This document shows, piece by piece, positions 2,365-38,579 of a stretch of DNA of 38,579 nucleotides (positions are counted from its first letter, which is position 1; every line of letters begins with the position of its first letter). The notes under the pieces were generated by a model. That model saw nothing but the letters and a program-made list of their open reading frames with translations. It was not told the origin of the DNA and made no database searches. A program made the position numbers and the translations under genes. The DNA lies in IMG/VR virus record IMGVR_UViG_3300005731_000064, positions 1-38,579 of that record. One strand, given 5' to 3'. The DNA is from a virus.

Positions 2365-3954
2365 ATGTCTCTGCTCTCGTTCCTGCGGTCAGGCTCCAGC
2401 ACGATCGACCCCGACCCGATCAAGCCCACCACGCGGGGCGCGTCTGACGTCCACTGGCGCTGGCAGGCTCACAACCCGCTACCCAGCACCGAGCAAGGTT
2501 GGCGCGAGCGGTACAATTGGCTCTTTGACTGGTACGCGGGGCAGCCGTACACAAATGACGACGTCAAGGATCTGCGGTTGTTCAAGGCCGTTGACACCGA
2601 CGGGAAGATCCTAGCGATGGCCCAGCGCCTGAACCGGGACGCACAGTTTGTGGTCGACACCGACACCTATGCGCTCAGCGGCGGTAGGTGGTCGCTGGAG
2701 ACGTTCGCCGGCGTCGACAGTTCTACACTACGGGCCGGTCAACAGGTGTGGCAGCGGTCGGGTCTACAGGCGCACAAGGCGGCCTGGATCCGAGCGGCGG
2801 CAAAAATGGGCGACTGCTGGCTTGAGGCGGTGCGGTTCGACGGCGGATCTCGGCTCGTGGCCTACGACCCTCGCCACTGCACGCCGGAATATATGCCCGA
2901 CGGCATCACGCTGGAAACGCTGACGGTGCAGATCGAATACTTCGGCGAGCCTGACGCGAACGGCGATCGAGCGCTCCACGTCTACAAGCGGGTAATCACC
3001 GCGAACGAGATCATCGTGACCGAGATGGGCAGCGACGGCGTGCCCGTTGAAATCACCGGGGAAAGCGGCAAGCACGGGCTAGGCGTGCCTCCGGTGGGTC
3101 ACCTGCGCATGACGGAGATCGTGGGGTGTCCAGAGCATAGCCTATGGGCCGGGCACGGGCTTGACCTGCCCATGGCCGCTATGGACTCGATGGTTGCGCA
3201 CATGCGGGCGATCTCCGAACGCTACGCGCACCCACACATTGTGGCCAAGGGTGCGCGCCTCGGTGGCGACGGTTTCGAGCAGTTGGGACGGGCCTTCATG
3301 CTGCCAGAGAAGGGCGAACTGTCCTACCTTGAGCCGGCACTAGCCGGCATTCAGCCGCTGTGGGAGATGACTCAAGGCTACCTACAGGACGTGCGGGGGA
3401 CCGTCCCTGAGTTCATCTTGTCGGGCACGGGCGCCAACACGAGCGGTAGAGCTCTGGAGTTCCGTGCGGATCAATTCCGGCGCAAGATGATCGACGCCCA
3501 GACCCGTGTAAACGCGGTGATCGCCCAGGTGACCGGCTACGCGGTGATGCTGGACGCCGAGGTCAAGGCGGGCGGGTCTGACCCCTTCCGCATCATGGCG
3601 CCGCCTCCGCTGCCGATCGACCGCGCCCAACACGTCACGCACGTAAGCACGGCGGTGCGTGAGGGGTTGATGTTGCGCGAGGACGGCGTCAGGCAGATGC
3701 AGGCGATCGGCCTCATCGACGAAGAGATCGACGCAGTGCAATACGCGGCACGGCTGCAAGAAGAGGCAGCAGGCGGCGGCGGTGGCGACGTGTTGGGCAA
3801 GCTCCCGCTAGCAGCTCAGCAGCTCGCACTAGCGCGTGAGAGGGCGGTCACCGCGGGCGACGCCGCACTAGCGGCAAGGCTTGGTGAGATCGGCGAGCAA
3901 ATGGCCGTCGTCCTCGCCGAGTCGTTGCAGCCTCAGGGGGTTGCAGGAGAGTAG
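2365..3954 (+). CDS. Portal protein
   Basis: This 529-aa protein is the predicted dodecameric portal through which DNA enters and leaves the capsid. It follows the large terminase directly. It shows the usual portal plan: a mixed N-terminal wing (residues about 30-290), then a stem/crown region with long helices. The segment GTVPEFILSGTGANTSGRALEFR (about 353-375) resembles the conserved stem region in which a glycine/serine-rich loop precedes long helices. The C-terminus is Ala/Gln-rich and helical, like a crown. The ATG is preceded by AGGAGA. The exact portal subfamily (SPP1-, HK97- or Mu-like) is not resolved from the sequence alone. Confidence 0.85.
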   Translation: MSLLSFLRSGSSTIDPDPIKPTTRGASDVHWRWQAHNPLPSTEQGWRERYNWLFDWYAGQPYTNDDVKDLRLFKAVDTDGKILAMAQRLNRDAQFVVDTDTYALSGGRWSLETFAGVDSSTLRAGQQVWQRSGLQAHKAAWIRAAAKMGDCWLEAVRFDGGSRLVAYDPRHCTPEYMPDGITLETLTVQIEYFGEPDANGDRALHVYKRVITANEIIVTEMGSDGVPVEITGESGKHGLGVPPVGHLRMTEIVGCPEHSLWAGHGLDLPMAAMDSMVAHMRAISERYAHPHIVAKGARLGGDGFEQLGRAFMLPEKGELSYLEPALAGIQPLWEMTQGYLQDVRGTVPEFILSGTGANTSGRALEFRADQFRRKMIDAQTRVNAVIAQVTGYAVMLDAEVKAGGSDPFRIMAPPPLPIDRAQHVTHVSTAVREGLMLREDGVRQMQAIGLIDEEIDAVQYAARLQEEAAGGGGGDVLGKLPLAAQQLALARERAVTAGDAALAARLGEIGEQMAVVLAESLQPQGVAGE

Positions 3955-5146: not shown

Positions 5147-6130
5147 GTGGATATCACCCAAGTTCCGGCGCTGATCGCAAACGACGCCAAGGCCGAAACC
5201 GTCATGCTCGAGCAGTACGACGCTCAGCCCAAGATGTACCAGACCCTCTGCGACGTGCGCCCGGTCAGTGAGACCAACCTGTACGGCAAGAACGGCACCG
5301 TGATCCAAGGCGCGGGCCGCTTCAAGAAGCGCGAGGACGGCGCGGAGATCGAGGCCGACAACCCTGAGCAGGGCCCGACGTGGTACTGCAAGATCCAGCC
5401 CTACGGCCGACGCCTTGACCTGCCCGATCGGCTTGTTGAGGGGTCCAGCGCCGGGCAGATCGCCAACATGATCCGCGAATTCGCGATGGACTTCGGCGAA
5501 TCGGCGGGGCTCGACAAGGATGATCACGTCGCTGGCATGTGGCAAAAGGGCAGCCTGACCGCGGGCTCGCTGGAATACTTCGACGGCCGGTGGGTCAACG
5601 GTGCGGATCCGCACCCTAAGTACGTCTATGACGGCCTCCCATGGTTCGACACCGCGCACACGCTGACCGGCTCGAGCACGACCATGAGCAACCACGCTGT
5701 CTCGCGTGCGTTGACCTCGGCGAATCTTCAGACGACCCTAACGGAGATCCGCACCGGCCTGTCGCTGGACGAGCGCGGCCAGCGGATCCGACTGCGCCCC
5801 GACACGCTGATCGTTCCGCCTGAGCTGGAGTTCACCGCGCGCACCGTGCTGGAGTCTGTGCTCTTGCCCGGCGGCCAGAACAACGACGCCAACGTCGTGC
5901 GCGGCGCGCTCGATCTGGTTGTGTGGGATGCCCTGACCGATACCGCGTCTGCCGCGGCTTGGTGGGTGTCGCAGCGTGGTCGCGGTGTGGTCTGCTTCGA
6001 TGAGGCGCCCCGGATCAAGCTCGTGCGCGATGACCTCAAGGGCCAGTGGCAGTTGCTTGCCGAGTTCAACTTCGGCGCCGCGGTCAAGAACGTGCGGTAC
6101 GACTTCTGCAACAACAAGGCCGCCAGCTAG
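5147..6130 (+). CDS. Major capsid protein
   Basis: This 327-aa protein is the predicted HK97-fold capsid subunit. The C-terminal half contains a block typical of Mu gpT-like and related capsid proteins: LIVPPELEFTARTVLES (about 220-236), then NDANVVRGALDLVVWDALTD, then the WWVSQRGRGVV and LVRDDLKGQW strands. The GTG start follows a perfect TAGGAGG ribosome-binding site, consistent with high expression. A stem-loop lies 10 bp after the stop. No N-terminal delta-domain is obvious, which fits a separate scaffold gene upstream. Confidence 0.9.
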   Translation: MDITQVPALIANDAKAETVMLEQYDAQPKMYQTLCDVRPVSETNLYGKNGTVIQGAGRFKKREDGAEIEADNPEQGPTWYCKIQPYGRRLDLPDRLVEGSSAGQIANMIREFAMDFGESAGLDKDDHVAGMWQKGSLTAGSLEYFDGRWVNGADPHPKYVYDGLPWFDTAHTLTGSSTTMSNHAVSRALTSANLQTTLTEIRTGLSLDERGQRIRLRPDTLIVPPELEFTARTVLESVLLPGGQNNDANVVRGALDLVVWDALTDTASAAAWWVSQRGRGVVCFDEAPRIKLVRDDLKGQWQLLAEFNFGAAVKNVRYDFCNNKAAS

Positions 6131-17194: not shown

Positions 17195-17509
17195 ATGGCT
17201 GTAGATCACTCTGGGACTGACATCCCCGCTTCTTTCCGCGTCCAGCCGGGTACGTCGGCGACTGAATACATCCCGAATTCTGGCGCGAAGATCGCGACGA
17301 TCACGACCGAGGGTGACACCGCGTATGTCGGCTACGCAGCCCCTGACGGCGGCGGCGCGTTCGTTTCCGGGACCGACGACTACACGACGATCCCAGCGGT
17401 GCAGCGGCTTGAGTTCGTGCTGGCAGTCGACGGGCAGATCAACCAAGCGAAACACCTGCACATCGCATCGGCGGGGGCGTCCTCGTACGTCACGATCGAG
17501 TACCGGTAA
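17195..17509 (+). CDS. Small virion-associated protein (first fibre-module gene)
   Basis: This 104-aa beta-rich protein has no recognised family. It carries no signal peptide or membrane segment. A CGGAGG ribosome-binding site precedes the ATG. Its stop overlaps the ATG of the SGNH fibre gene (TAATG), so the two are coupled. Its size and beta pattern suggest a small tail-spike adaptor or decoration protein. It does not carry the GFLYT tag found in the next three genes. Confidence 0.6.
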   Translation: MAVDHSGTDIPASFRVQPGTSATEYIPNSGAKIATITTEGDTAYVGYAAPDGGGAFVSGTDDYTTIPAVQRLEFVLAVDGQINQAKHLHIASAGASSYVTIEYR

Positions 17510-18840
17510 TGCCGGGCGGCTTCCTTTACACGCCGCCACACCGACTGACCGAGCTCCGGTTAGCCGATGCTGCCGCGACGCTTGACCCGAATTCGATCCT
17601 GTCCACGCCGGTCGATGAGGTGGGCAACGGCGCGCTGCGATTCCAGATCAAGACGTCCGTAGGGCCACACACAACCCCGACGGCCGGCGCTGCTGTGGTG
17701 TGGCGCGCTGCCGATCTGCTCGATGGCCAGCCAACCGAGGCGGCGGTCTGGGCCATGGTGTCAGAGATGTACCTGATGGCGCGCCCGTCGTTGTCGTCCG
17801 GCGTCGTTGTTGCGGTGGGCGTCTGTACGTCTGCCGCGCTGGCGCAGTACATCGAAACAGGCTTGTGGGCCGACTCTGGCGCAATGAAGCTGCGTTACAA
17901 CATCGACGCGACAGCAAGCACGAGCACCACGGGGATCAACACCAGCGGCGGTGACTTCGACGTGACCCGTGCGCGGCAGTCGATCGGCATCGGCTACGGT
18001 GGCGCGTACGTGGGGCCGTCAGACCGCGGCGATACTTCGTACTCGCTACGCTGGGGCTCGCACTCCATCGCGCGGAATGATGGCCGGCGCTTTACCGATG
18101 GCGTGTCGACGCTGTCGAAGGAGTATCGACTGAATGACGTTTACGTCTATGTCGCGGTCTCACTCGCGGCGGCTACCACGCAAGCCGAGACGGTCGTGGT
18201 GGCGGCCCGACACGGGGTCATCGCGTCGGACACGAACGCCTGGGAGCCCAGGCTAGATGACGGCCTGCCCGTGCTGTATGTCGGCGACTCCGTGCTGGCC
18301 TACGCTTACGCGTCCTTCGTCCAGAAAGGATCGCGCGGCCTGACGTCGGAGATGTGCGCTGCAAGTGGGCTGCGGATCACACAGGTCGGCGCGTTCCTTG
18401 ATGACATCGGGATCGGCCGCTCGTCTGCCGTGGGCGGCGAGAAAGTAGCCGACGCGCTGTCAAATGCGGCGGCGCGGATCGCGCTTACGGATCGAGCACC
18501 GCGGGCGATCATCCACCTTCTAGGCATCAACGACGCGAGCGCCCCAACGTCGGCCCCGGCGTTCGCAGCGTCGTACCAAGCGCTGATCGACGCCTACGAA
18601 GCTGCATACCCCGGCGTGCCGCAATTCCCTTGCATCCCGCCAGAGCTCGCCAACGCGACACACGACACGACCCTGCAAGGGTACACCGCTTCGATCAACG
18701 CGCTGACGGGCGTTGAGTCTGTGATCGACCTGCGCACCGGCTACGACGTGGCCACGATGTCAGGCGACGGCGTGCACCCCAATGAGGCGGGGAATGTATT
18801 CATCGCGGGCAAGTTCACTACCGCACTGACGGGGCTATAG
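17509..18840 (+). CDS. Tail fibre/spike with SGNH (GDSL) esterase domain
   Basis: This 443-aa protein is a predicted receptor-binding or depolymerising tail protein. The N-terminus carries the GFLYT tag shared with the next two proteins. Residues about 20-245 are beta-rich. From 255 onward there is an SGNH hydrolase: block I YVGDS (G259-S261, nucleophile S261), block III GIND (339-342) and block V SGDGVHPNEAG with D420 and H423. The block II glycine is not assigned. Such domains remove acetyl groups from host surface polysaccharide in other phages; that activity is inferred. Downstream gene starts after a three-base gap. Confidence 0.8.
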   Translation: MPGGFLYTPPHRLTELRLADAAATLDPNSILSTPVDEVGNGALRFQIKTSVGPHTTPTAGAAVVWRAADLLDGQPTEAAVWAMVSEMYLMARPSLSSGVVVAVGVCTSAALAQYIETGLWADSGAMKLRYNIDATASTSTTGINTSGGDFDVTRARQSIGIGYGGAYVGPSDRGDTSYSLRWGSHSIARNDGRRFTDGVSTLSKEYRLNDVYVYVAVSLAAATTQAETVVVAARHGVIASDTNAWEPRLDDGLPVLYVGDSVLAYAYASFVQKGSRGLTSEMCAASGLRITQVGAFLDDIGIGRSSAVGGEKVADALSNAAARIALTDRAPRAIIHLLGINDASAPTSAPAFAASYQALIDAYEAAYPGVPQFPCIPPELANATHDTTLQGYTASINALTGVESVIDLRTGYDVATMSGDGVHPNEAGNVFIAGKFTTALTGL

Positions 18841-26076: not shown

Positions 26077-27855
26077 TCACTCGCCACCGCCCGGCGACGC
26101 CGCTGTGTGCACGATGCAGTAAAGGCGCCGGCCTCCGATGCTGACCCGCGCCAGCCTGCCCCCTGCCGACGTGCCGACCCATCCACGGTCCCGCCACTCG
26201 GCGATCATGGCGCCGGGCACAAGACCAGCAGCGGCTAGCCACGTGCGTACGTGCTCGGCGGGTACGGGCTGCTCGGCGGGCCAACGATTCGCGGCGATCT
26301 CACCAGCTCGGCGGGCCTGATAGACATCCCACGCGCGTGCCGCTTGATCCGATGCGCTGGCGTGGTCGTCGATGTGAGACCAAACCCAGGCCCACACGTC
26401 AACCGTCGGCTCCGGGAGCCCGACTCTGTGGGCATTGGCGGCAGCGAACCGAAGCAAGGCCACGATCTTAGCCGCGCGAGCATGCCCGGGATGCTGGGCC
26501 TGGATGCGCCTCACCCGATCCCGATACCACGTCCTGAGCTTCTGCTGTGGGCGCGTCTGGAGGCGCTCGATCACACGCGGGCCAAGGTGCCCGTAGTGCT
26601 CATCGATGCCGTGTTCGACGTCCTGGGCAGCCGAGGCGCTAGGCATAGGGTCCCCGGTCACCTCGATGGTACGTGACGCTGCGCCTTCTTGCCCGCCGTA
26701 CGACCTCAACGGCGCCTCACCGGTCGACATGGCCACGACACGCCACGACCTCGCGCGCTCTGTGCCGCGTCCGCGTCCGCCGCCGTTGGCGAGGGTGTAG
26801 ATCATCTGTGGCACCGTGTCAGCGTGCTGTGCCCTCACGCGGGACGTCTCATCGAGCATGAGGCCCACGTCACACGACAGCGCGGCGGCTTGCTCGATGT
26901 GGTAGGCGGTCGAATCCCACGACCGGATGAGTCCACCCACCTCTGACGGCTTGCCCCACACGCTGGCGCCAACCTTGAGGACGGTACTCTTGCCGGTCTG
27001 GCGCCTGCCTACGACCGACACGACCGCGCCCACGTCCACGCCGCACGGGTGCATGCAGCACGACGCGAGGGCCGTATAGATGGCGAGGTAGACGTGAGGC
27101 AGGTGTGACACTGCGCGGATCGTCTCACACCAGCCCTCCCAAGACCCGGCGACGTGTACGGAGTCGGCGAGGGGTGCGACGGCGTCCTCTGGCATCATGG
27201 CCAGCGCCGCGCCTCCGATCGTCAGGTGCCCGGCTTGGTAGCTGTCGCCGTGCCAGCCACAGCGCGACGTCGAGCGCAGGACGGGGAGTCCTGAACAGTG
27301 CTCTTGCTCGGCGAGGAAGATCGCCAGAGCTGAACTGGTAGAGCTCACGACGGGCGCGCCTTGCCCGGCCAGCTTGACCAGACTGCGACCGTCCGCGACG
27401 ACTTCGCGCGGCACCAGCGTGGACGTCCACGCGCCATCTTCCGACCAACCGATGCGGACCGAGGCGTGCCCTGTGTCCGTGTCCCGATAGCGACCGGTGA
27501 TCGCAATTGGCCGACGCGCGACGAGTAGCGGGCCATCCTCGGTGAGCCTCCAGACGCCATCGACCGAGTAGCTGTAGCCGGCCGGTGTTGGCAGGTCAGG
27601 GGCATCGGTAGCGGTGTCGGCTAGGGGGCACTGCTGAGGGGCCTCGCCTTGCTTGACCTCCTCCGGCTTGGCTGGCCTCGCCTTGCGTCGGAGTGAGGCG
27701 GCGGTGTCTCGTGACACCAGCGTGGACACCTCGAGGAGCACGGCTTCCCGGTCGTCGGATGTCGAGAGGGCTCGCATCGCGGATTGATCGCGCATCCACT
27801 TGGCGATCATGAGCGGCCGGTCTTTGCGTTCGGCCTTGCGTAGTGCGTCGATCAC
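26077..27855 (-). CDS. DUF927-type ATPase (replication helicase-like)
   Basis: This 592-aa protein is the largest early gene product and probably acts in replication initiation or as a helicase. The central domain has Walker A GRRQTGKST (283-291) and Walker B LMLDE (332-336), and fits the DUF927 superfamily found in mobile elements. The SWDST and ANGGGRGRG segments are typical of that family. N-terminal residues 1-90 are charged and may bind DNA or a partner. No primase domain was seen. It starts at GTG overlapping the previous stop (GTGA). Since no DNA polymerase is present, it probably recruits host enzymes. Confidence 0.75.
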   Translation of the reverse strand: MIDALRKAERKDRPLMIAKWMRDQSAMRALSTSDDREAVLLEVSTLVSRDTAASLRRKARPAKPEEVKQGEAPQQCPLADTATDAPDLPTPAGYSYSVDGVWRLTEDGPLLVARRPIAITGRYRDTDTGHASVRIGWSEDGAWTSTLVPREVVADGRSLVKLAGQGAPVVSSTSSALAIFLAEQEHCSGLPVLRSTSRCGWHGDSYQAGHLTIGGAALAMMPEDAVAPLADSVHVAGSWEGWCETIRAVSHLPHVYLAIYTALASCCMHPCGVDVGAVVSVVGRRQTGKSTVLKVGASVWGKPSEVGGLIRSWDSTAYHIEQAAALSCDVGLMLDETSRVRAQHADTVPQMIYTLANGGGRGRGTERARSWRVVAMSTGEAPLRSYGGQEGAASRTIEVTGDPMPSASAAQDVEHGIDEHYGHLGPRVIERLQTRPQQKLRTWYRDRVRRIQAQHPGHARAAKIVALLRFAAANAHRVGLPEPTVDVWAWVWSHIDDHASASDQAARAWDVYQARRAGEIAANRWPAEQPVPAEHVRTWLAAAGLVPGAMIAEWRDRGWVGTSAGGRLARVSIGGRRLYCIVHTAASPGGGE

Positions 27856-34274: not shown

Positions 34275-34847
34275 TTACGGCGCGTCGTCGTCGGCGGTCA
34301 TGTCCTCGAGGTGGCCCGGGTTTCTCGTCAGGAACTGCGCCAGCTTGACCACATCGGCGTCGCTGAGCTCTGTGAACGGCGGGCGACCCTTGCTGCTCAG
34401 CCACGCGTCGAGCTCCGGCAGACCCACGCCAGCGAACGACAGAACCTCAACCAACGTGGGCTGGGCGGTCTCGAGCCGTTCGATCCGGCGCTTGACCTTC
34501 TTCCCGCGGCTCTTGGCGAGCGACACGGAGAAAGGTGTATCCACGTGGGACAGGGCGCGGATCCGAATGCCTCCGACCTCGACACCTGCCCACGTCACGG
34601 TGGGGTCGCGGTAGAGCTGCACCGTGCGGCCGACCCACTGGTCAGTGTCGACGCCCCAGGCAAGGGCAAGGACGCGGCGAGACGTCTTCGAGGGCCGCCA
34701 CGGTCGATGGCCCTCGATGTGCACGTTGACAGGCTGTTCTGCGCTGCCCTCGGTCACGGCGGTGATCGTCGCCTGGATGTCTCCGCCCACGAGGTCGTCG
34801 GCGTTGAGCTGGTCTGACTTGGCTGCAATGTGTTCGGTGATGTCCAT
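34275..34847 (-). CDS. Conserved phage protein next to RecE-like exonuclease
   Basis: This 190-aa protein contains RRVLALAWGVDTDQWVGRTV and LYRDPTVTWAGVEVGGIRI (about 57-97). It resembles a widespread but functionally unknown phage family that reads W-G-x-D-x(4)-WVGR-x(4)-LYRDP and GGIRIS-x-x-SH. It is usually found near replication and recombination genes, as here. AAAGGAGG precedes the ATG. Confidence 0.65.
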   Translation of the reverse strand: MDITEHIAAKSDQLNADDLVGGDIQATITAVTEGSAEQPVNVHIEGHRPWRPSKTSRRVLALAWGVDTDQWVGRTVQLYRDPTVTWAGVEVGGIRIRALSHVDTPFSVSLAKSRGKKVKRRIERLETAQPTLVEVLSFAGVGLPELDAWLSSKGRPPFTELSDADVVKLAQFLTRNPGHLEDMTADDDAP

Positions 34848-35641: not shown

Positions 35642-36101
35642 CGTCGCCCCCTAGCGCCTTGTCGGCCGCTTCCATTGCTTCGTGGAAGGACTCGCACCCC
35701 GAGACCCAAACGTCTGTGGTGTGGTCGTCGTGGTAGCGCACGATCCCCATGTAGGGCCCGGCCTCGTCGGTGTCGTCCCTCCATGCCATTAGGCACACGT
35801 TCCCGGACCGCCTCTCCCACGTGGTCCCGTCGTAGCGCCACCCCTCCGGCACGGTTCGGCCGCGGCCTACGCTCGGGTCCCACAAGCCGCGGAGGCGATC
35901 GCGTTCGGCGCGGAGCCGCCCAACGCCTGCGCGTAAGGCGTGGTTCTCGGCCTCCAGCTGCCGGCACCCCGCCACCGCCTTGAGTTCGTCGACGGCCTCA
36001 ACATAGGCCCGCGTCATCGCATCGAATGACACGCCGTCAAGAGCCGCGGAGTCGCCGTCGAGCCATGCCCGGGCGGCTTCGGGGGTGATGTCACTCGCCA
36101 T
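35634..36101 (-). CDS. Coiled-coil protein next to exonuclease
   Basis: This 155-aa protein has a helical N-terminus and a coiled-coil (LEAENHALRAGVGRLRAERD). Its C-terminus ends in DKALGGDDG. No family is recognised. A GAGG precedes the ATG. It overlaps the exonuclease gene by 11 bases. Confidence 0.5.
   Translation of the reverse strand: MASDITPEAARAWLDGDSAALDGVSFDAMTRAYVEAVDELKAVAGCRQLEAENHALRAGVGRLRAERDRLRGLWDPSVGRGRTVPEGWRYDGTTWERRSGNVCLMAWRDDTDEAGPYMGIVRYHDDHTTDVWVSGCESFHEAMEAADKALGGDDG
35637..35665. repeat. 29-bp direct repeat, copy 2
   Basis: This copy is identical to 35252-35280 and lies 385 bp away. It spans the end of the 35634-36101 gene and the start of the 35243-35641 gene. 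Confidence 0.9.
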
Positions 36102-36927
36102 CGGTCACCTCGAAGTTAAGCTCTTCCTCGACCCCGTCCGCCCACGCTGGCAAGTCGAGGTCATGCACGCCGGGCCACATGCCCGGCCACTCATCGGACG
36201 CCTCGCACTCGTCGAGTAGGCTCAGCAGCCCCTGACGGTAGACCGCACCAGCGCGGCGGGCCTCGGCATCGAGGCGGAACACGCCCGCGTCGTACGGCGC
36301 CACGTTGTGCACAGCGATGATCGCAACCGCGTCAACGGGTCGGCCGAGGCGATACTCAGCGCCCTTGGCATAGTGCGCGAGTTGGCCGTGGTAGCCGTAC
36401 TTCGCAGCCTCGCGACCGAAGCCGGCCAGGTTGTTTGTCATCTTGAGTTCGACCACCACGCATGCCCCAGGCTCGACCTCGAGCAACGCGGCTTGCTCCT
36501 CGGTGGCGGACTCAATGAGCCAATCGGATTTGGCCTTGCATTTGCGCCCGCCTTCGACCCACTGCATGACCAACTCAGGCGAGCCTGACGACAGGATCAC
36601 AGCGGCGGCAGGGTGGGCGGCTACAGCGGTGGCCATGTCGATGGCGTGGGCGACCTCACCCGGCTTAACGGGCACCTTGCCTAGGTGGGCGTCGAGGAAG
36701 GTTTGATACGCCTTGTGCCGCTTGTTGCGCACGCCGTCGTAGGTGATGAACTCGTCGGCGAACGTGTCAGGCTCCAAGACCAAGCGATGCACCATGCGGC
36801 CGAGCTGGAACGTCGGCGAGTCACCGCGGGGATGGGTGAGGGCGTGCCGGTATGCCTTGGGGCTCGTCGCGATGATCTTGAGCGAGCTCCAGTTGGTGCC
36901 GGGTAGGGCGAAGTAGGGGTCAGCCAT
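36091..36927 (-). CDS. RecE-like exonuclease (PD-(D/E)XK)
   Basis: This 278-aa protein is predicted to chew DNA ends for recombination or concatemer formation. It shows the RecE/exonuclease VIII pattern: LGRMVHRLVLEP (42-53), GRKCKAKSDWL with D135, VVELK with E160 and K162, and QLAHY with Q182 and Y186. No RecT-like annealing protein was recognised, but SSB and a RuvC-like nuclease are in the same operon. It is the first gene after promoter E and the origin region, so it is likely early. AAGGAGG precedes the ATG. Confidence 0.8.
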   Translation of the reverse strand: MADPYFALPGTNWSSLKIIATSPKAYRHALTHPRGDSPTFQLGRMVHRLVLEPDTFADEFITYDGVRNKRHKAYQTFLDAHLGKVPVKPGEVAHAIDMATAVAAHPAAAVILSSGSPELVMQWVEGGRKCKAKSDWLIESATEEQAALLEVEPGACVVVELKMTNNLAGFGREAAKYGYHGQLAHYAKGAEYRLGRPVDAVAIIAVHNVAPYDAGVFRLDAEARRAGAVYRQGLLSLLDECEASDEWPGMWPGVHDLDLPAWADGVEEELNFEVTDGE

Positions 36928-37033: not shown

Positions 37034-37257
37034 AAGCGGCTCGGCCTCGAGCACTCGCCAGAACCGCCCGCCTGCAACGCATTGTAGCATCAAACCTGGC
37101 ACGGACCTTGCAGAGTGCAGACGGCGTGCCAAGTAGGGCTGAAGGGGTCAGTACTCGAAATCCGCGATTCTTATGCAAACTGCGTGCCAACACGCCATTT
37201 TCGACGAAAGGCACGGGCAAGCCTTGCGAATGGGCGAAAATCAGGCCGAAAACAGCT

Positions 37258-37538
37258 TGAGCCATTGAGCCAGCTTGAGCCAGGGTTTGAGCCAGGTATT
37301 TGAGCCAGGTCGATTGCGTGGTAGCCGAATCCATAGCCAATAACTAACTAAATGGTTCAAAAATATATATATAGAGAGGGTTCGTAAAGGGAGCGAAAAT
37401 GCAGTGTTGGCAAGTATCCATGAATTTTTGATCTCATTTACAGGGGGTCTATGTGGTGAACCAGTGAGCCAGTTGGTCGTACTCACCGATAGCAGCGGGC
37501 TAAAAGCTGGCGCAAGGGGTTGAGCCAGGATTGAGCCA
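37258..37538. repeat. TGAGCCA iteron cluster (candidate origin)
   Basis: Eight perfect TGAGCCA copies start at 37258, 37266, 37276, 37288, 37301, 37465, 37521 and 37532, all in one orientation. TGAACCA variants occur at 37457 and 37576. The AT-rich stretch around 37335-37375 lies between the two groups. Iterons beside an AT-rich region fit a replication origin. Expected initiator is unknown; the DUF927-type protein is one candidate. Confidence 0.55.
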
Positions 37539-37667
37539 GGGCGACGATCTGTCCGTGGTAGACGACGAGAAGTGTTGAACCACTTTCGTGTACTGGGTTT
37601 CGTGGCATCTGGTGACCCGCTCGAGGTGGTGGGCTGGGTAGGTTGTGGGGGTCAGGGAGGTGTCTGA

Positions 37668-37715
37668 ATGGCTCGCTTGCTTGTGATCGACGACGACGTG
37701 CGGTGGCTGCTGTGA
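37668..37715 (+). CDS. Fifteen-residue ORF resembling a response-regulator start
   Basis: An ATG behind GGGAGG opens MARLLVIDDDVRWLL and stops. The sequence matches the first strand and acidic pocket of receiver domains (I-L-V-V-D-D-D pattern). The stop overlaps the GTG of the next gene. It is either a leader peptide that couples translation or a truncated relic. Confidence 0.4.
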   Translation: MARLLVIDDDVRWLL

Positions 37716-37882
37716 CCAAGCCCGACTGGCCTACGCTGCTCATGCGGTGCGAGGATGCCGGCGCCCATCTGTCCAGAGCTGCGAGCGCTCGAGACGACAG
37801 CAGGCGGGCCGAAGAACTGGAACTCGCGAGGGGCTATCTGAGGAAGCTCTGGCGGGATCTAAAGAGGCTGGCCGATGCCTAG
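37712..37882 (+). CDS. Small charged helical protein
   Basis: This 56-aa protein is helical and charged (RAEELELARGYLRKLWRDLK). It is coupled to the 15-codon ORF upstream by a four-base overlap, and overlaps the ImmA-like gene by eight bases. No family is recognised. It could be a partner of the ImmA-like protein, but this is inferred from coupling only. Confidence 0.5.
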   Translation: MTKPDWPTLLMRCEDAGAHLSRAASARDDSRRAEELELARGYLRKLWRDLKRLADA

Positions 37883-38375
37883 CCGATACCAGCGCAGGGC
37901 CATGGCAGAGCGTCTAGGCACGCAGGACGGATGCCTAGCAGACGCCATGGCCACACACGGCGTCAGGCTCGTTGCCCTCGATATGCCACCAGAGAAGGTC
38001 GGCGGCCTACTGGAGAGCGACGGCCCCACCATCGTGGTCAACGCCAAGCTCAGCGATGGGGCGCGAACGTGGTGGACAGCTATGCTCATGGGCGCCTACC
38101 GCATGGGCCCTCACTGGATGCCGGTGTCCGCCTGGCGATGCGAACGCGTGTTCGATCGAGGCGAGATACCTAGCGATGAGGCCAAGCACTACGCCGGGGC
38201 GCTGCTGATGCCCGTTAGCCTTATCGATCAGATCGAGGCCGACGTATTCACGAGACTAGATGAGCCCGCGTGCATCGTGTCGGAGCTCTCAAGGCGCGCC
38301 GAGGTGCACACGATGGCCGCTGCGTGGTGGGTCGCCAACTGCCGAGCGCTCAAGGGGCATAGCTGGGTCTGGTAG
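37875..38375 (+). CDS. ImmA/IrrE-like protein lacking the HExxH zinc motif
   Basis: This 166-aa protein follows the ImmA/IrrE (M78) plan: an N-terminal helix, TIVVNAKLSDGARTWW (52-67), the active-site helix, DEAKHYAGALLMP (101-113), and a C-terminal Leu/Ala-rich helical part. In the active-site helix the family usually reads A-H-E-L-G-H-Y; here it reads A-M-L-M-G-A-Y (69-75), so both zinc histidines and the catalytic glutamate are gone. It is probably a catalytically dead ImmA, acting by binding a partner. No repressor gene was found nearby. AGAGG precedes the ATG. Confidence 0.7.
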   Translation: MPSRYQRRAMAERLGTQDGCLADAMATHGVRLVALDMPPEKVGGLLESDGPTIVVNAKLSDGARTWWTAMLMGAYRMGPHWMPVSAWRCERVFDRGEIPSDEAKHYAGALLMPVSLIDQIEADVFTRLDEPACIVSELSRRAEVHTMAAAWWVANCRALKGHSWVW

Positions 38376-38398
38376 CGCACCCAACCACCACCAACTGA

Positions 38399-38426
38399 CC
38401 CACGCCATACCCGGCGTGGGTTTTTT
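38399..38426 (+). terminator. Rho-independent terminator
   Basis: CCCACGCC and GGCGTGGG form an 8-bp GC-rich stem with a six-base loop, followed by six Ts and, shortly after, another run of six. It ends the right-end cassette 23 bp after the ImmA-like stop. Confidence 0.9.
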
Positions 38427-38501
38427 CGTGTTTTTTCAGATCGACCCCTTGCCGCCATTATCAGCCGGTCGGGGTTGGATGGTACCGGGAGAGGCCAGGA
38501 G

Positions 38502-38559
38502 GGTACCCCAAAAGCGGGGTCCTCTACTATTGCGTCAGTGACGGGATAGTAGGGGTACC
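38502..38559. repeat. Nested inverted repeats at the right end
   Basis: GGTACCCC (38502-38509) and GGGGTACC (38552-38559) are inverted. Between them, CTACTAT (38524-38530) and ATAGTAG (38546-38552) flank CGTCA-G-TGACG (38533-38543), giving a 29-base palindrome with two mismatched pairs. It could be an operator, a recombination site or part of a packaging signal. Confidence 0.7.
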
Positions 38560-38579
38560 ACCCTCCATACCCGGGGGTG

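Follow-up and report, generated by a model that had tools for sequence, protein, structure and literature searches.

What might a phage do with a member of a protease family that appears to have lost the means to cut? In many induction switches of phages, conjugative elements and defense systems, the part that cuts is an M78 (ImmA/IrrE) protease, and these enzymes act by cutting XRE repressors. The question is raised by a gene close to the right end of a tailed phage genome from environmental DNA (IMG/VR virus record IMGVR_UViG_3300005731_000064), all 38,579 bases of which were analyzed and are referred to here as the window. A first-pass annotation of the same DNA had described the product of this gene, from its sequence, as a catalytically dead ImmA/IrrE-like protein and had proposed that it may act as a decoy for host or rival regulators. 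We refer to it as the pseudo-M78 protein.

Genome Layout and the Pseudo-M78 Operon

The packaging, head and tail genes of the phage are found in the left two thirds of the record, and the right third encodes, on the minus strand, a helicase, a DNA methyltransferase and a single-stranded DNA-binding protein (SSB) in addition to the two minus-strand genes listed here.

168-2356, terminase (left two thirds)
2365-3954, portal (left two thirds)
5147-6130, major head protein (left two thirds)
26077-27855, minus strand, primase/helicase (right third)
36091-36927, minus strand, exonuclease VIII-like gene (right third)

A quick profile search detected neither a phage integrase (PF00589) nor an HTH_3 domain (PF01381) in the record and matched 14 of 14 control genomes, yet its sensitivity is limited, given that PF06114 run by the same route missed the pseudo-M78 gene. 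This fits the earlier remark that the phage lacks a recognizable repressor.

Several other features of the genome deserve mention. A protein encoded in the tail region (17509-18840) contains a GDSL-like lipase/acylhydrolase domain (E 1.1e-10) and is possibly a receptor- or surface-modifying enzyme. The minus-strand gene at 34275-34847 encodes a conserved phage protein of unassigned function (phrog_11517, E 8.8e-55) that has relatives in 186 phage records, the best of them in Rhodococcus, Gordonia and Aeromonas phages. No near DNA match to the first 25 kb of the window was detected among phage records. The non-coding right end (38425-38579), 3' of the terminator listed below, carries a CTACTAT ... 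ATAGTAG inverted repeat and GGGTACC motifs and, given the terminase at the left end, may lie near a packaging (cos-like) site; the record contains no exact terminal repeat of 10-200 bases.

The pseudo-M78 gene lies on the plus strand, downstream of a divergent intergenic region, with the following features.

37257-37582, plus strand, TTGARCCA/TGARCCAG repeat array around an AT-rich core (from sequence)
37668-37715, plus strand, putative 15-codon mini-ORF, MARLLVIDDDVRWLL (from sequence)
37712-37882, plus strand, ORF of 56 aa with a GTG start and a charged product (from sequence; codon score 0.067)
37861-37867, plus strand, AAAGAGG, ribosome-binding-site-like (Shine-Dalgarno-like), 7 nt 5' of the pseudo-M78 ATG (from sequence)
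37875-38375, plus strand, pseudo-M78 (ImmA/IrrE-like) gene, 166 aa, label P0001 (from ORF, profile, alignment and fold model)
38397-38422, plus strand, intrinsic terminator, a 10-bp stem followed by a T run, about 20 nt past the pseudo-M78 stop

The open reading frame annotated at first pass was recovered exactly. It scores 0.168 bits per codon, like other genes of the phage, versus -0.39 to -0.04 for three other frames scored across the gene, and because of this score, the ribosome site and the terminator we consider it an intact coding gene. Its start overlaps the 56-aa ORF by 8 nt, and the GTG of the latter is in turn overlapped by the TGA stop of the mini-ORF, which is served by a Shine-Dalgarno-like AGGGAGG (37654-37660) and whose product presumably resembles the very start of a response-regulator receiver domain. 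The three overlapping ORFs, with pseudo-M78 last before the terminator, run divergently from the early replication/recombination genes, and their arrangement looks like one translationally coupled operon, the members of which would be co-expressed. The 56-aa protein, which is probably helical, had no family in Pfam, PHROGs (queried within a 79-aa ORF) or local phmmer searches and is a candidate partner of the pseudo-M78 protein. No XRE/HTH repressor gene was found beside pseudo-M78 in the HTH_3 search of the record, with its limited sensitivity, and a crude HTH regular expression gave 0 matches in the window, a weak test that recognized just 1 of the 45 ORFs lying upstream of viral M78 genes.

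The intergenic repeat array is concentrated, with all 8 TGARCCAG sites of the 38.6-kb window falling within 37266-37539, on one strand and on both sides of the AT-rich core (around 37300-37449; GC 0.41 versus about 0.65), whereas shuffles predict 2.33 sites in the window. Situated between divergent operons, the array looks like replication-origin iterons or a multi-site operator.

Remote Homology to M78 Peptidases

Profile comparisons establish the pseudo-M78 protein as a remote M78 homologue (15-23% overall identity to M78 relatives). The Pfam model PF06114 (Peptidase_M78) matches residues 27-149 with E=0.0025 and 18.1 bits, which does not reach the gathering score of 22 bits. Comparison by hhalign with a profile of 80 M78 proteins (79 of 80 collected loci, L183 being dropped as a duplicate of L182, plus L088) gave a probability of 95.2, a P of 2.5e-8 and a score of 50.4 over residues 26-155. 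The best of 300 shuffled sequences scored 22.7, the reversed sequence 14.7 and the next best of 376 frames from the window 26.7. With HMMER, the protein scored 14.4 bits against the M78 profile, compared to 6.7 for the best of 2000 shuffles. The sole PDB sequence match up to E=10 was IrrE (E=0.29), and NCBIfam, PHROGs and PADLOC returned no match up to E=10.

Loss of Catalytic and Conserved Polar Residues

Conservation was assessed in an alignment of 35 of these 80 M78 proteins. The HExxH positions fall without gaps on M70-L71-M72-G73-A74, which confirms the M-L-x-x-A replacement noted at first pass. The two His residues, the Glu between them and a later Glu are present in 35/35 of the aligned relatives, whereas the phage protein has M70, L71, A74 and S100. 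The motif provides both metal and catalytic residues in PprI, where it comprises His92, Glu93 and His96 as described in PMC10904395, and the zinc ligands given for VapB52 in PMC13273310 are H216, H220 and E245. The family column of the third ligand, a Glu, corresponds to S100, a loss that the first-pass annotation had missed. No HExxH is present anywhere else in the 166-aa protein. If the alignment is right, the protein cannot cut by the M78 mechanism, and it is very probably a dead M78 homologue.

The replacements extend beyond the active site. At least 90% of the 35 relatives agree in 25 columns, of which the pseudo-M78 protein keeps 10, and these comprise 10/13 of the non-polar columns versus 0/12 of the polar ones (Fisher P 1.1e-4, for a polar/non-polar split chosen after the data were seen). 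The lost polar columns include the two His and the Glu of HExxH, the later Glu and the R-Q-R-F-T stretch described below. G73 and the A-x-x-x-A-x-x-x-L-M-P motif (A103, A107, L111, M112 and P113) are retained, as reported at first pass, and E102, the retained Glu of the reported "EA," is not at the ligand position. The reported Thr-Ala pair holds in part, as A69 is the family Ala and the family Thr column is occupied by W67. A zinc ligand retained as E102 in EAKHYA was considered and dropped, the ligand column being the one that aligns with S100.

The family R-Q-R-F-T stretch that precedes HExxH reads A-R-T-W-W in the pseudo-M78 protein. The first Arg of this stretch and the first His are 7 residues apart, as are Arg85 and His92 of PprI, and Arg85 is described in PMC10904395 as a sulfate and ssDNA-pocket residue. 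Because the lost Arg sits at this pocket position, DNA sensing of the PprI type may have been lost too. We do not claim Cys89 as the equivalent of the CapP cysteine switch; its MAFFT column is mostly Asp, Cys-Asp/Glu occurs in that loop in 3/80 relatives, and the hhalign pairing with one relative places Cys-Glu-Arg against Cys-Asp-Lys there.

Predicted Fold

AlphaFold was uninformative with the single sequence (pLDDT 38.2). With 35 homologues it gave a model with pLDDT 80.5 and pTM 0.75 (residues 82-88 and 162-166 at low confidence), which is partly circular in that M78 homologues were supplied and the fold was partly imposed. The best Foldseek PDB matches of this model were IrrE (E 5.1e-4), PprI and then PrpR, and its TM-scores to the top entries were modest (0.42 to 0.52, normalized by query length). 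Near the top of the viral models were proteins annotated "IrrE," and the best TM-score there (0.63) belonged to an unnamed entry. In VIA-align the highest Z was obtained with CapP (7t5t, 11.3 over 139 residues), ahead of PprI (8.5), IrrE (7.8), PrpR chains (6.6 to 6.8) and remaining matches at 5.2 and below. As far as a partly circular model built on the homologue alignment can indicate, the fold is IrrE/CapP-like, in line with the family assignment made at first pass.

Distribution of Relatives and of the Dead Site

No close relative of the pseudo-M78 protein was detected in phage records, plasmids, IMG/VR or GTDB genomes. A tblastn search of phage records returned 43 weak matches (best E 1e-2, 28% over residues 8-89), which we attribute to chance because all of the best 40 of the 43 are on the minus strand of Propionibacterium/Cutibacterium phage records, at genes for tail assembly chaperones or at genes without a name. 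In IMG/VR, peptide patterns of the protein itself matched 3 stretches and patterns from its alignment with four M78 proteins matched 313, with 0 confirmed in either case. GTDB genome contigs yielded 36 matches, 0 of them confirmed as relatives, and whole genomes of three phyla contained none (0/396, 0/199 and 0/398). These pattern searches detect close relatives only and were also blank for three other proteins of the phage, so the absence of relatives is weak evidence.

The HExxH motif was intact in 80/80 proteins of the M78 profile set (79 genomic, one viral) and in 80/80 viral M78 proteins, although both sets are biased toward intact sites, as the motif is partly included in the patterns used to find them. 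In the viral set, 68/80 carry the RQRFTIAH pattern, and the other 12, which were found by a second pattern alone, were likewise intact (12/12). A search with the Pfam M78 model recovered 30 genomic loci, and all of these except L222 and L227 could be aligned to the profile, which left 28. HExxH was missing in 6/28 of these, and all six are long, HTH-fused frames of 473-729 aa with assorted residues at the HExxH positions (L204, L206, L209, L211, L224 and L225). We read these frames, from their sequences, as PrpR type, a group in which the motif is lost throughout as sampled here (six loci). Thus, the substitutions are not shared by the homologues examined: the aligned ImmA-type relatives are all intact, and dead sites were seen only in HTH-fused, PrpR-type proteins. 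No published report of a phage-encoded dead ImmA was found in the open-access literature searched.

Comparison With Known Systems

In predicted fold, order of secondary structure, conserved glycines, the Ala-x-x-x-Ala and L-M-P core positions and the size of stand-alone members, the pseudo-M78 protein resembles ImmA/IrrE proteins (PF06114, COG2856), such as ImmA of ICEBs1 and IrrE/PprI of Deinococcus. It differs from them in the replacement of HExxH, of the third-ligand Glu and of R-Q-R-F-T, and in that no XRE repressor gene was found adjacent, whereas M78 genes are described as commonly located beside XRE repressors (PMC2701414). CapP of the CBASS CapH/CapP pair, the best structural match to the model, is an active, ssDNA-activated zinc peptidase with an additional C-terminal GAF-like domain; the pseudo-M78 protein lacks the zinc ligands and, at 166 aa, has no space for such a domain. 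According to PMC10904395, PMC13273310 and PMC10233336, CapP cuts the repressor CapH upon exposure to ssDNA, which turns on CBASS anti-phage defense.

The closest functional parallel may be Rir of the Streptococcus thermophilus phage TP-J34, also a phage-encoded stand-alone M78 protein. Rir is reported to bind the repressor Crh and to block its oligomerization without cleavage, even though it bears HEXXH (PMC7907104). It differs from the pseudo-M78 protein in keeping this motif, in the HTH gene that adjoins the corresponding gene of phage Sfi21 and in sequence (about 18% identity). Orf122 of Sfi21 matches, at 100% identity, a TP-J34 protein annotated "putative metallo-proteinase," which we infer to be Rir.

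An M78-like domain without HExxH is also found in the PrpR/RamB (ScfR-type) transcription factors, in which an HTH, an M78-like and a C-terminal domain are fused, unlike the single 166-aa domain studied here. The domain of Mycobacterium tuberculosis PrpR is described as lacking HEXXH and as part of a CoA-binding cavity (PMC6765138). By contrast, PMC13273310 speaks of homologues including PrpR as having the motif, with which the six sequences examined here disagree. The pseudo-M78 protein scored 30.1 against a PrpR-type profile and 31.6 to 49.8 against 8/8 random ImmA sets of equal size. For this reason we rejected an origin of the protein within the PrpR type, where the site is already dead, and since the protein is nearer to the ImmA type, its site seems to have been lost independently of that in PrpR-type proteins.

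Possible Functions

The explanation that we put forward is a pseudo-protease that holds a protein partner without proteolysis and is made from a compact operon, for which we see the balance of belief and doubt as even. A stand-alone M78 protein in which, by the alignment, the hydrophobic fold core persists whereas the catalytic Glu and every zinc ligand are gone would be translated from this operon, opposite to the early replication/recombination genes and presumably together with its neighbors. It would then hold a partner, which could be the 56-aa protein of the same operon or an XRE-type regulator encoded by the host or by the phage, and would alter the DNA binding or oligomerization of that partner, by analogy with the reported action of Rir on Crh. 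The more general reading as a non-proteolytic protein-binding regulator, to which we give slightly less than even weight, is favored because catalysis is impossible if the alignment is right and because Rir offers a precedent without cutting; PrpR, with its M78-like domain devoid of HEXXH, is a second precedent. Against the full explanation, none of the relatives shares the substitutions. The uninformative single-sequence model, the partly imposed fold of the other model, the modest TM-scores, the lost R-Q-R-F-T stretch, the HTH repressor sought and not found beside the gene and the 56-aa protein without a recognizable family also count against it.

The decoy proposed at first pass is a possible special case of such a binding regulator. 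The protein would bind XRE-type repressors of the host or of rivals (ImmR-like or CapH-like) and displace them, or shield them from an active protease, changing prophage induction or the expression of defense genes. The dead site within a retained fold core is in keeping with this, as is the fact that the closest solved structure to the predicted model is that of CapP, described as the cutter of CapH for CBASS; the PADLOC defense library gave no match at E up to 10, however, and the conserved residues on the substrate side have changed too, and we consider the decoy unlikely. A more specific version appears improbable: a purpose-made decoy of DNA-damage-sensing M78 proteases that would occupy CapH-like or ImmR-like repressors uncut, such that, while the phage infects, host defense operons or rival prophages that depend on proteolytic derepression would be kept off, or else be released with the repressor uncut. 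Also unlikely is that the gene is a decaying, functionless relic of a repressor-ImmA lysogeny module, in which the HTH repressor would have shrunk to the 56-aa remnant and the protease lost its site. The gene order, in which the M78 gene is preceded and overlapped by a small gene, is like that of repressor-ImmA operons, and neither integrase nor HTH_3 was found in the record. Yet the ORF is intact, with codon bias, a ribosome site and a terminator, and a neutral relic is hard to reconcile with a non-polar core kept at 10/13 positions despite such low overall identity.

Two further readings strike us as very improbable. The pocket of an M78-type pseudo-enzyme could bind a small molecule, as in PrpR/RamB, and both the CoA-binding cavity described for PrpR and the presence of PrpR chains among the structural matches to the model would agree with a ligand sensor; nevertheless, the protein fits ImmA-type profiles better than the PrpR type, has no N-terminal HTH and leaves no room for a C-terminal domain. 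It is comparably doubtful that this is an orphan phage protein outside M78 that resembles the family by chance. The sub-threshold Pfam score, the blank NCBIfam, PHROGs and PADLOC searches and the uninformative single-sequence model speak for chance, but the whole-domain hhalign score is more than twice that of the best of 300 shuffles and IrrE was the only PDB sequence match. Overall, the observation made at first pass stands and is extended by a fourth lost residue, and its interpretation is partly supported.

Implications

The pseudo-M78 protein is a real, unusual, orphan pseudo-protease in a family in which domains without HExxH are already known from PrpR-type regulators. Were it only a relic, it would matter little. 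If CapH-like repressors are shielded by it, this would be a new kind of counter-defense, in which a pseudo-protease is set against protease-switched control of defense. It also provides a clean, naturally "dead" protein with which the claim that Rir disarms a repressor without cutting could be tested. More broadly, a stand-alone M78 protein of a phage, with the whole site replaced and the core kept, would show that in this family selection can act on binding by itself.
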